Source: Chloroflexota bacterium (GTDB taxonomy: Bacteria > Chloroflexota > Dehalococcoidia > Lucifugimonadales > Lucifugimonadaceae). From it: a DNA stretch of 64,000 nucleotides. Below are positions 677-40,644 of this stretch, piece by piece; the stretch's first letter is position 1, and each line of letters begins with the position of its first letter. The stretch lies in the NCBI GenBank assembly GCA_027618835.1, contig JAQCHZ010000005.1, positions 62,001 through 126,000 on the forward strand. Reading direction: 5' to 3'. A program made the translations under genes and the position numbers. The notes under the pieces were generated by a model. It was not told the DNA's origin. It was given only the letters and a program-made list of their open reading frames with translations, and searched no databases.

Positions 677-767
677 TGGCGGAGGGTGCGGGATTCGAAC
701 CCGCGAGAAGGTTTACCCCTCAACCCGCTTAGCAGGCGGGCGCACTAGGCCACTATGCGAACCCTCC
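677..767 (-). tRNA. tRNA-Ser(GCT)
   Basis: Read on the minus strand, the acceptor stem GGAGGGT pairs with ACCCTCC. The anticodon stem CCCGC/GCGGG encloses loop CTGCTAA, giving anticodon GCT (serine, AGC/AGU codons). A long variable arm (about GTTGAGGGGTAAACCTTC) follows, as expected for tRNA-Ser, then a T arm with GGTTCGAATCC. The discriminator is G and the 3' CCA is encoded at 677-679. Confidence 0.95.
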
Positions 768-6606: not shown

Positions 6607-6816
6607 ATGTGTAGAATGACCGCCGGCCCGTTATTTGCGATGATGGGCGTGGCTGGAACTGCAGCAGGGGTCGGATTGGCCGTTGTTCGCGAACGACTCG
6701 ATCGAAGGTCAGACGCCCGCGCCGCCAGAGAAGCAGCAGACGAGCAAGACGACAACGACTCTGAATCAACTCGCTCGACCGATTCAACTGACTCTGCTGG
6801 CTCAGATAAGTCCTAG
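6607..6816 (+). CDS. small predicted membrane protein
   Basis: This 69-residue ORF starts [21 protein letters not shown]. It has one hydrophobic segment (about residues 7-26), a basic stretch ([15 protein letters not shown]), then a Ser/Asp/Thr-rich acidic tail. I recognise no family. It starts after the yebC terminator and overlaps the 3' end of the minus-strand thioredoxin gene by 15 bases. The coherent architecture (anchor, basic linker, acidic tail) supports a real gene, but it is short and unconfirmed. Confidence 0.4.
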
Positions 6817-8868
6817 CTGTTCGAGCATCTCAGCCGTACTCGTAACGGGTAGTTTGCAAGCATAGTTTTCGCAAACATAAGCCGTTGCCTTGCCGTTCAC
6901 CTGACTCCGGCCCTCTAGCAATGGAGATCCGCCAGGTTCGCTAGAACCTTCAACAGCACCTGCCAATACCCGGTTCGGCTCGAACGAACTTCGTAGTTCA
7001 TGTTTCATTTCTGAAATAACGGAATCCGATTCGTCCCCAATCAGCACCACCTCTTGCGAATTCGATCGCAAGAAGTCGACAGCCGCTAGCCAGGATGTAA
7101 CCGCGGACGGTGCCTGCTCCATGTGTGGAATCAACGCCTTCATCGACGTTTCGGATTTCTCTGCGTACTCGGCAATCCCAGTGAATACGCTCAAACGTTG
7201 CAAGGCCATCGCAGCAATCGCTCCACCCGACGGCACGGCGTTATCAAGTACGTCACGTGGGCGAACCAATAACTTCGAGTGTTCGAGTGATGTGTCGTAG
7301 AACACACCCCAGTCTATGTCCCAGAAACGTTCGATCATCTGATCGGCAATAGCCTGCGCCTCGCGAACATACGAGAAGTCGAACGTCGCTTCGTACAGCG
7401 TCAGAAGAGCGTCGATCAAGTAAGCGTGGTCGTCCAGGTACCCAAGTATTCGTGCATCGCCCTCCGACTCGCTGGTCGCCTTCCACGTATGAAGCAATAA
7501 TCCATTCTCGTCACGCACTTGATCTAATAGCAATCGAGCGTTCTTTTCCGCTGTGGCAATCCACTCATCGTTTTCAAATACAGCCCCGGCTTCGGCAAAT
7601 GCCTTGAGCATTAACGCATTCCACGAAACGAGAATCTTGTCGTCGATTCCCGGTGCTATTCGTTTCGACCGCTCCTGATAGAGAATCCCACGAACTCTCT
7701 CGATGTCGGCGATAAGGTCTGCGGGCTGCTGCGCAGTTCGGGACAGAAACTCTGGCAGTGACATTGGCATGTTCAGGATGTTCGATCCTTCGAAATTCCC
7801 TTCCTCCGATATCCCCCAATAAGCCTTGGCTAGCTCAGAGTCAGATGAATCCAGTGCGGAATCTATCTCGTCAGATGTCCAGACAAAGAATTTCCCTTCG
7901 ACTCCCTCGGAATCGGCGTCAGAAGCTGAATAGAAACCTCCAGCGGCGTGAGTCATCTCTTTGGTCACATATTCGAGCGTTTCTTCAATGACCCGCTTGA
8001 ACAACGGTTTTTTCGTGGCCTGATATGCATGGATATACAGCGATACGAGTTGGGCGTTGTCGTACAGCATCTTCTCGAAATGAGGTACCAGCCAGCGATC
8101 ATCTACTGAGTAACGAGCAAACCCGCCACCGATCTGATCGTAGATACCACCATGAGCCATTTTTTCGAGCGTAAGAGTCACTATGTCGAGCACTTGCGTG
8201 CTACCGGTTCGCTTCCAGTACCGAAGCAATAGTTCGTAGATCATCGGTTGAGGAAATTTGGGGGCACCCTGTGATCCGCCATGCTCCAGATCAGCGTTAC
8301 TTACCAGTTGTGTAAAACTTCCGAATATCAGCGATTCATCAACTGATCCTTCGATTTTCTTTGGAGTCGCTTGTTCGCGGATAGTATCGACAACCTGTTT
8401 TGAATTGTCGAGAATTTCCTGGCGATTGTTGGCGTAGGCATCCGATATCGCTGCAAGCACTCGTGGGAATCCCGCCATGTTGGGTCGATCTTCAGGCGGG
8501 AAGTATGTTCCACCAAAAAACGGTTGACCGTCCGGAGCAATAAATACGGTCAGAGGCCAACCGCCTGAACCGGTCATTGCTTGAACTGCGGTCATGTAGA
8601 TCGAATCGACGTCGGGGAGCTCCTCTCGATCGACTTTAATGTTGATGAATCCAGTGTTCATGACTGCTGCAATCGATTCATTTTCGAACGACTCGTGCGC
8701 CATTACGTGGCACCAATGACACGACGAGTATCCGATAGATAACAAAATCGGTCTGTCGAACAATCTGGCCGCCGCAAATGCGTCTTCGCCCCACGGATAC
8801 CAATCGACTGGATTGTCCTTATGTTGGAGCAAGTACGGGCTTGTTTCGTTGGCCAGTCGGTTGGGCAT
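6802..8868 (-). CDS. YyaL/SSP411-type thioredoxin-domain protein
   Basis: This 688-residue protein has an N-terminal thioredoxin-like DUF255 domain with [10 protein letters not shown] (Cys50, Cys53), then a long alpha/alpha-barrel region resembling N-acylglucosamine 2-epimerase/cellobiose epimerase folds. That is the full YyaL (human SPATA20-like) architecture. The molecular role is unsettled; a redox or sugar-binding function is usually proposed. It is the last of three minus-strand genes after the PHP gene and the NHL-thioredoxin gene, so two thioredoxin-fold proteins sit side by side. No signal peptide is visible, so it is probably cytoplasmic. Confidence 0.92.
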
Positions 8869-8972: not shown

Positions 8973-10481
8973 CTAAAGACCGGTCAATTCCAACATGTAA
9001 ACCTCTTTGGTGTCTAACTCCATAACCTTGATTTTGTGATTGTTGGTATCAGCGATGTAAACACGATTTCCAGCGACCGCCACGCCAGCAGGTTCACTGA
9101 ATTGGGCGATGGTATTGAACCCATCCATATCACCAGCTTTTCCTGAGCCAGCAACGGTGTTTACCTGCAATGACCCAATAGCTACCGACTTGATTTTGTT
9201 GTTATACGAATCGGCAACGTAGATGACATCTTTGCTGACAGCGAGTCCCTGCGGATGCTGGAACAGAGCATCTTTCCCAACCGCATCGAGGTCGCCAAAA
9301 TCAAACAGCCCTTTGCCCACCAGTGTCACCACCCTACCCTCGTCTGCGATCGCTGAAACCCTGAGCGCGCTGGTTTCACTATCGATGAAAAATACTGCGT
9401 TGTTCGATACTTCGATTCCATACGGCTGTGCGAGTCGCGCATTCGATTTGAGATCATCATGTATATCCTCACCGCCATCTCCCGCGAACGGACTCACTGT
9501 GCTTTCGGCGATGTTCATCGACCAAAGCTGATGAAAGCCCGCCATTGCCACATATAGAACTCCATGGTGAAGAGAGAGGTCATATGGCGAGTTGAGCGGC
9601 GTGGTTAGAGCATCCCCACCCTGATGCCGATACAAGGACTGCTCGCCAGTTCCGGCGATTGTCTCGGCAGTTCCAGCAACGAGACCAACTTTCACGATGG
9701 TATGCGTTCCAGCGTCGGCTACATACAAGGTCTCGCCATCAATAACCACACCCTGTGGATTGTCGAACAATGGCTGATCGAAAGCTCGCTCGGAAAAGAC
9801 ACCGGGATGTTCAATATCTGCAAGCGTAGATTGGCCGTTGCCAATGACGGTCTCAACTTTTCCATCGAGATCGCTGATGATAAGCCGACGGTGATTCGAG
9901 TCGGAAATCACCAAAATCTCCCGTTCGGCGTCGGCAGTAATTTTGCCGGGGAACGACAGCTGTGTTTCGGGTTTAGTCTCAGGAAGAAGATCCAACTTCC
10001 CATGCACAAAATTGCCCATCGGTTCGTGTTCTTCGATCATTCCAGCGAGCACCTGATCGAGAGCATCGAAGGGGAGCTCGCCTTCGTGTCGACCAATCAC
10101 TTTGCCTGTTGGATCAAGGAACATCAGGGTCGGCCATGCTCGTGCTGCGTACGACTTCCAAATCTCGAAGTCGGCATCGTTCACGACTGGGTGACCAATT
10201 CCGTAGCGACGTACTGCCTCACGAACGTTCTCTGAGGACTTTTCCGCATTGAATTTTGCCGAATGGACACCGACGACGGTCAGAATGTCGGCGTACTTTT
10301 CTTCCAGCTTCCGCAACTGCGGAAGTACATGCATGCAGTTAATTCAGCAGTAGGTCCAAAAATGAAGAACGACAAGTCGACCTCGCAGGTCTTCCAGCGT
10401 TAGCGGGGCTTTGGTGTTGCACCATTCAAGCCCTTCCGGAAACTCCGGAGCGTGGATCGTGCCTTCGTACCTTGTCGCCAA
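8973..10481 (-). CDS. NHLRC2-like thioredoxin/NHL-repeat protein, candidate selenoprotein
   Basis: The full gene reads through TGA 10346-10344. From TTG 10481 (only G-rich sequence upstream) the first part gives [17 protein letters not shown] and then [23 protein letters not shown]2 relatives read [14 protein letters not shown], so the TGA replaces the first Cys of the CxxC redox motif (codon 46; Cys49 is the partner). That gives UxxC, the classic bacterial selenoprotein pattern. A 7-bp stem with AGUU loop follows (10308-10325). After the thioredoxin domain (about 1-165) come NHL repeats ([30 protein letters not shown]) forming a beta-propeller. Without readthrough only a 453-residue fragment from ATG 10334 without an active site would be made. 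Alternatives are a nonsense mutation or a sequence error. The domain call is firm; selenocysteine is inference. Confidence 0.8.
10308..10325 (-). promoter_or_regulatory. candidate bacterial SECIS hairpin
   Basis: On the minus strand CTTCCGC pairs perfectly with GCGGAAG around loop AGTT. The loop begins 26 bases after the TGA at 10346-10344. Bacterial SECIS elements need a stem whose apical loop carries an early G (often GU) roughly 16-37 bases after UGA; this fits. The stem lies in coding sequence for LPQLRK, so a chance hairpin remains possible. Confidence 0.55.
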
Positions 10482-40468: not shown

Positions 40469-40644
40469 ACTTTGATGACTCTAATTGGACTAAACTTGGC
40501 GATGCCAAATTCTGACACCAGATTGGCATATGTCAATCTGGCGACGGTCGAACTAGCCGTCGAATTCATTGGCACCGATTTGTACCGGGCGCACCACCGC
40601 CAATCCATCCAACGCTGTTAATCAACGTAGTAAATTCAAAATCT

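Follow-up and report, generated by a model that had tools for sequence, protein, structure and literature searches.

The window analysed here, a stretch of 64,000 nucleotides of Chloroflexota DNA, carries on its minus strand a predicted gene for a relative of human NHLRC2 and Arabidopsis SOQ1. The features of this locus, in window positions, are as follows:

8973..10481, minus strand: predicted selenocysteine (Sec)-containing NHLRC2/SOQ1-like protein of 502 residues, thioredoxin domain plus NHL beta-propeller, with Sec at residue 46.
10479..10481, minus strand: TTG, probable start codon from alignment with relatives and from the sequence, with a G-rich stretch 5' of it.
10344..10346, minus strand: in-frame TGA, putative codon for selenocysteine 46 (Sec46), with which the redox motif U-I-N-C begins.
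10335..10337, minus strand: codon of Cys49, the presumed resolving Cys of U-I-N-C (Cys in 108/108 Sec forms).
10332..10334, minus strand: ATG, the start expected of a standard gene caller (from the ORF list).
10308..10325, minus strand: predicted bacterial SECIS hairpin, CUUCCGC-AGUU-GCGGAAG, apical loop at 10318-10315.
6802..8868, minus strand: DUF255 thioredoxin-fold gene (Thioredox_DsbH; Pfam PF03190, 254 bits) with the Cys motif CHWC, a possible partner.

Read-through translation shows that a single TGA, lying between FWTYC and INCMH, is all that interrupts the frame from TTG 10481 to TAG 8973 on the minus strand. The first-pass annotation had proposed a candidate selenocysteine at this TGA (10346-10344, minus), in place of the first Cys of a CxxC motif and with a clean frame on either side. 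Both observations were confirmed, and the position can be given more precisely as the second C of the family motif CC(I/V)NC, which reads CUINC in the window protein. In many of the aligned relatives shown, ATG, GTG or TTG stands opposite TTG 10481, which is likely to be the start of the gene; no signal peptide is apparent from the sequence of the product. Pfam domains found in the read-through product are Thioredoxin_8 (53.5 bits), AhpC-TSA and NHL. Residues 1 to approximately 145 match thioredoxin-like families, of which PF13905 scores best for this domain, and the remainder consists of NHL repeats. The closest solved structures are those of Arabidopsis SOQ1 (7djj, E=2e-100) and human NHLRC2 (6gc1, E=4.1e-98), with near end-to-end alignment. 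In the SOQ1 alignment the U is matched with the second C of YCCINC, and the Pro of the WPT motif, a candidate for the cis-Pro expected opposite the active site, is also aligned; a WPT-like motif is found at the expected place in all 108 of the Sec forms described below, as a match of sequence rather than of geometry.

Were the TGA an ordinary stop, the functional product would start at ATG 10334 and would be a propeller with no redox site. As the earlier annotation anticipated of a standard caller, the ORF list does have the gene start at ATG 10334, giving 453 aa, and this codon is Met in 60/80 of the Sec forms from the first two genome sets. However, it is not Met in the other 20 of the 80, the coding frame and an aligned start 5' of the TGA are kept in relatives, and a product from ATG 10334 is without part of the thioredoxin fold, its Thioredoxin_8 score dropping from 53.5 to 27.8 bits. 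Termination at this codon is accordingly a very improbable reading, and annotation from ATG 10334 cuts off the active site of the gene.

Homologues were collected from 120 related genomes, counting that of the window (60 with a homologue at E<=1e-40), and from 393 genomes drawn from the class (94 with a homologue at E<=1e-60). Four loci in which the site was not covered were dropped (L043, L064, L168, L239). With overlaps merged, the site codon could be read in 130 distinct genomes and was TGA in 80, TGC in 47, TGT in 3 and nothing else; that is, it was either the TGA or one of the Cys codons (50 in all) that the first-pass annotation had suggested looking for in relatives. A DNA pattern applied across the phylum matched 33 of 400 genomes, a fraction that gives no frequency of Sec versus Cys forms because the pattern requires TGA in U-x-N-C and a fixed motif; the reversed-pattern control had zero matches in the rows shown. 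All 33 genomes encode homologues at the site, and 28 of them were new, so that TGA forms are known from 108 genomes, spread over 24 family-level groups of Chloroflexota. This count leaves out the repeats L250-L253 and also the loci of a separate genome-contig set, which are likely to be copies of the same genomes. Among the 79 loci of that set, 72 had Cys and 7 had TGA; the scan took the best 80 of 442 matches and its query peptide had Cys at the site, so that it is biased against TGA forms, and its peptide patterns likewise favour Cys forms.

Within the 108 Sec forms, N at +2 and C at +3 from the U are invariant. The residue preceding the U is C in 89/108 and A in 19/108, and the first C of CCINC is therefore dispensable. 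Ala before Sec, in the motif WTYA-U-INC, is seen in the 19 loci L174-L192 of family f60. Among the Cys forms, those of families f73, f97 and f103 (L197, L199-L210, L212-L238) have the motif WTxGCINCQ and lie mostly in open frames of approximately 640-870 codons, and an extra domain may therefore be present in them.

The genome of the window, which occupies C6:62001-126000 in it, is a draft (2.4 Mb, 88.94% complete, 41 contigs), in which a sequencing error or a pseudogene might be suspected. However, the TGA is no reading error of a lone assembly: it is shared by many independent assemblies across the 108 genomes, among them the complete isolate genome CP046147.1 of the cultured SAR202 bacterium Ca. 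Lucifugimonas marina JH1073. Random stops elsewhere in the gene, which the earlier annotation had named as the sign of a false lead, did not appear in the homologues over the stretch read. In the 108 Sec forms, to the extent that their fragments allow, no second stop was found in the 38 codons 5' of the TGA or closer than 430 codons on its 3' side. The frame after the TGA extends for 430-500 codons in the 102 genes that end within their fragment, which argues against a pseudogene, and the other six run off the fragment. The probability of an error or a decayed gene is negligible.

Downstream of the UGA lies the predicted SECIS hairpin, a feature that the first-pass annotation did not mention. 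It begins 18 nt 3' of the UGA and has a 7-bp stem and a loop, AGUU, that starts 25 nt past the UGA; the energy of the hairpin alone is -10.4 kcal/mol. The rules for bacterial SECIS elements given in the available text of PMC13188914 call for a G among the first two bases of the loop, a loop of 3-9 nt located 16-37 nt downstream, a stem of 4-16 bp and an MFE of at most -7.5, and the window hairpin falls within all of these limits when its energy is taken for the hairpin alone. A hairpin test set at an energy of -7.5 or lower was passed by 75/80 TGA forms versus 2/50 Cys forms. In the genome-contig set it was passed by 7/7 TGA forms (largely repeats of the same genomes) and by 3/72 Cys forms, and 25 of the 28 further phylum genomes also passed. 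Imperfect hairpins are those of the phylum genomes L243, L244 and L280 and of 5/80 TGA forms, and the hairpin of L246-L249 is strong and lies in another register, with loop GTT.

Conservation within this element extends to individual positions. The loop is AGTT in 79/80 TGA forms and the three loop-adjacent pairs are kept in 80/80. Codons in the hairpin of TGA forms are Pro CCG (80/80), Leu TTG (80/80) and Arg CGG (79/80), whereas Cys forms are mixed there; as background, TTG makes up 244 of 2206 Leu codons further downstream. We conclude that synonymous sites within the hairpin are frozen in TGA genes. When covariation was scored over 108 sequences, 96.6% of cells were paired, compared with 32.5-71.2% when the partners were slid by 1-3 columns. 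Changes on both sides of a pair numbered 25, versus 1-15 in the slid controls, where the count of 15 came from a slide of -2 columns; the commonest example given is C-G to T-A at the hairpin base (18). When 51 distinct hairpins were subjected to 500 shuffles, none of the shuffles reached the observed pairing or the both-side count, but the number of pair types was attained in 16. Taken singly, the 47-nt segment of the window has a z of -1.17, with 29/200 shuffles as stable, so its hairpin is unremarkable in stability for its composition and it is conservation on which the case for a SECIS element rests.

The same test, run over the in-frame TGAs of the whole window, was passed at 4 places; among these, the TGA of the NHLRC2-like gene is followed by the longest frame and by the hairpin of lowest energy. 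At 40513 (plus strand), a TGA and a SECIS-like hairpin lie upstream of an enolase-superfamily gene; this candidate was rejected as a false positive, and it shows that the hairpin test by itself yields such matches. The remaining two places, 10054 (plus) and 41272 (minus), have short downstream frames of 45 and 47 codons.

Selenocysteine insertion would require dedicated machinery, and the earlier annotation had named selA, selB, selC (tRNA-Sec) and selD as the genes to look for in this genome. All four are present. The tRNA-Sec (C40:63316-63409) scores 66.4 bits and is called SeC with anticodon tca by ARAGORN, and the same assembly has matches to selB (318 bits), selA (513 bits) and selD (366 bits). 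The selD gene (L024, G000:C41:13971-14897, minus) contains a TGA of its own at codon 17, in the context MSEKTVRLTELATCAG-U-AGK (CAG-U-AGK), followed by a strong hairpin of eight pairs with loop GGUUU. The selA gene (G000:C6:42584-43924) lies approximately 25-30 kb from the NHLRC2-like gene on one contig, and the same spacing of approximately 25-30 kb is seen in G004, G005, G008, G011, G012 and G013, of the same genus. Within the window, a tRNA-Ser (gct) at 677-767 (minus) scores 48.4 bits, just above the Rfam tRNA-Sec cut-off, which means that the cut-off alone is not specific.

With presence across genomes scored at E<=1e-60, selA was detected in 73/80 Sec-form genomes of the first two sets and in 27/28 of the phylum set; the 8/108 Sec-form genomes in which it was not found are 61-91% complete. 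It was also detected in 37/50 Cys-form genomes. The codon thus does not simply track the machinery, and the difference from 73/80 (Fisher p=0.012, uncorrected for relatedness) is supportive only.

Decoding of UGA as another amino acid, by a change of code or a suppressor tRNA, would equally place a UGA inside the gene. However, TGA is also used as an ordinary stop: it ends 5/38 mechanical ORFs of at least 250 aa in the window and closes 42 of the 102 Sec-form genes that could be read to their end. Moreover, tRNA-Sec is present, and a code change leaves the conservation of the SECIS hairpin unexplained, which makes recoding of this kind extremely unlikely. The selenocysteine reading put forward at the outset is supported by the sel genes, by the TGA across assemblies, by the presence of only this stop in homologues and by the hairpin.

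The history of the site was examined in a FastTree tree of 222 rows, from which short or near-identical rows had been dropped and on which five Sec/Cys changes were needed. The Cys forms closest to the TGA forms are those of G102 (97% complete, TGC) and G113 (91%, TGT), in neither of which was a selA match or a hairpin found. The Cys form of G102 is nested within Sec forms with supports of 95-96 in both of the rootings tried, and is thus a clear reversion to Cys. That of G113 forms a sister pair with the Sec form of G076, a member of the same family, with support of 100; the place of this pair beside Cys forms of other phyla has a support of 21. On the evidence of this tree, Sec gave way to Cys on at least one occasion in Chloroflexota NHLRC2 forms. 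A phage origin was also considered and rejected: the TGA pattern was matched on 18 viral contigs, none homologous at the Sec position. A tblastn search of plasmids was uninformative: of 240 records matched, 2 spanned 80% or more of the query, and the best identity was 39.0%.

The gene context offers a candidate partner. In 23/30 loci, the window's included, the next gene downstream, in the same orientation, is a DUF255 gene (flank of up to 1.5 kb); this arrangement is not seen in the six g12 loci, and L037 stops at the contig edge. This neighbour is seen in three genera of the family (g1, g11 and g2). The arrangement suggests that the Sec-containing protein and the DUF255 protein may act in a shared pathway. 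For 7 distant genomes, the available text of PMC6107167 reports no conserved neighbours of the family, and the link with DUF255 may therefore be specific to this lineage.

Taken as a whole, these observations are very probably best explained by a selenoprotein form of the NHLRC2/SOQ1 family, made by SelB/SECIS insertion and likely to act as a selenol oxidoreductase. The insertion route is the known bacterial mechanism: when the ribosome arrives at the UGA, SelB carrying Sec-tRNA-Sec would bind the hairpin 18 nt downstream, so that Sec would be inserted. Judging from the alignment, Sec46 would supply the attacking selenolate in place of the first Cys of CxxC, and Cys49 would resolve. If the crystal structure of its homologue NHLRC2 is taken as a guide, U46 is expected to face the cleft that separates the thioredoxin domain from the NHL propeller. 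This interdomain cleft probably holds the substrate, and according to the available text of PMC6107167 it contains the majority of the family's conserved residues. The most likely role of the protein, as far as can be predicted from sequence, is that of a cytosolic selenol-dependent thiol-disulfide oxidoreductase acting on a conserved partner; the adjacent DUF255 thioredoxin-fold protein may perhaps act together with it.

Searches of the literature on NHLRC2/SOQ1, on NHL repeats and on SAR202 or Chloroflexota/Dehalococcoidia with selenoproteins, and of selenoprotein catalogues, returned no NHL selenoprotein. Words that begin with 'selen' are likewise absent from the main text of the paper on Ca. 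Lucifugimonas (PMC10444878), a genus described in the available text of that paper as aerobic, very slow-growing and light-inhibited. The statement in the first-pass annotation that no selenoprotein with this NHL fusion was known to have been described thus agrees with the literature searched, where two broad catalogue entries were compared by name and motif only. These entries are 'Thiol-disulfide isomerase-like protein' and 'Redoxin family protein', both UxxC, and the protein might be a real selenoprotein already catalogued under one of them. In the available text of two reviews, the first entry is assigned to PF13905 by one and to cd02966 by the other, PF13905 being the best-scoring family here too, and the Sargasso Sea study behind it had only 4 sequences. 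On the other hand, the main text of the selenoprotein literature searched has no 'NHL' wording, and no NCBIfam model (June 2026) reaches its cut-off. We judge that such an overlap is unlikely, though it deserves to be taken seriously. Apparently, then, a known insertion mechanism and a known protein family are met here in an undescribed combination.

We lean towards the view that these genes define a hitherto undescribed family of selenoproteins, the first to carry an NHL propeller, which is found in at least 24 family-level groups of Chloroflexota, is possibly ancient, and marks the CxxC as a redox catalyst through its Sec/Cys exchange. As Sec carries a high cost and is retained almost exclusively for redox catalysis, a conserved exchange between Sec and Cys is evolutionary evidence for a catalytic residue. 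Recurrence of the Sec form in other Chloroflexota points to the site being a real redox catalyst. If this is true, an exchange confined to a single residue would identify the CxxC of NHLRC2/SOQ1 as a redox catalyst. NHLRC2 is described in the available text of PMC6107167 as essential in mammals and of unknown function. SOQ1 regulates light protection in plants, and the redox activity of its thioredoxin-like domain was still called undetermined in 2023 (PMC10173003, available text). The Sec forms, together with the DUF255 neighbour, would then provide a tractable model for the reaction of human NHLRC2 and of the plant quenching regulator SOQ1, in which Sec would serve as a trapping handle and 75Se as a label for finding the substrate.

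Compared with known systems, the window protein resembles human NHLRC2 (6gc1) in its thioredoxin-like domain and NHL propeller, in the CCINC motif and in near full-length homology (profile 1.3e-166), whereas the human protein has Cys for Sec and an extra C-terminal domain (PMC6107167, available text). The lumenal domains of Arabidopsis SOQ1 (7djj) are aligned with it through the active-site motif and the WPT region; however, SOQ1 is a Cys form and, from the available text of PMC6107167, sits in the thylakoid membrane and carries a HAD domain in addition, in contrast to the window protein with no apparent signal peptide. Prokaryotic UxxC selenoproteins (thioredoxin, Prx-like thiol:disulfide oxidoreductase and thiol-disulfide isomerase-like proteins) share Sec at the first position of CxxC, the thioredoxin fold and a bacterial SECIS element, but the available text of the catalogues gives an NHL domain for none of them. 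Bacterial Cys-form NHLRC2 homologues have the same architecture, with YCCINC or xGCINC, and differ in having TGC or TGT at the site and in passing the SECIS test in only 2/50 and 3/72 cases.
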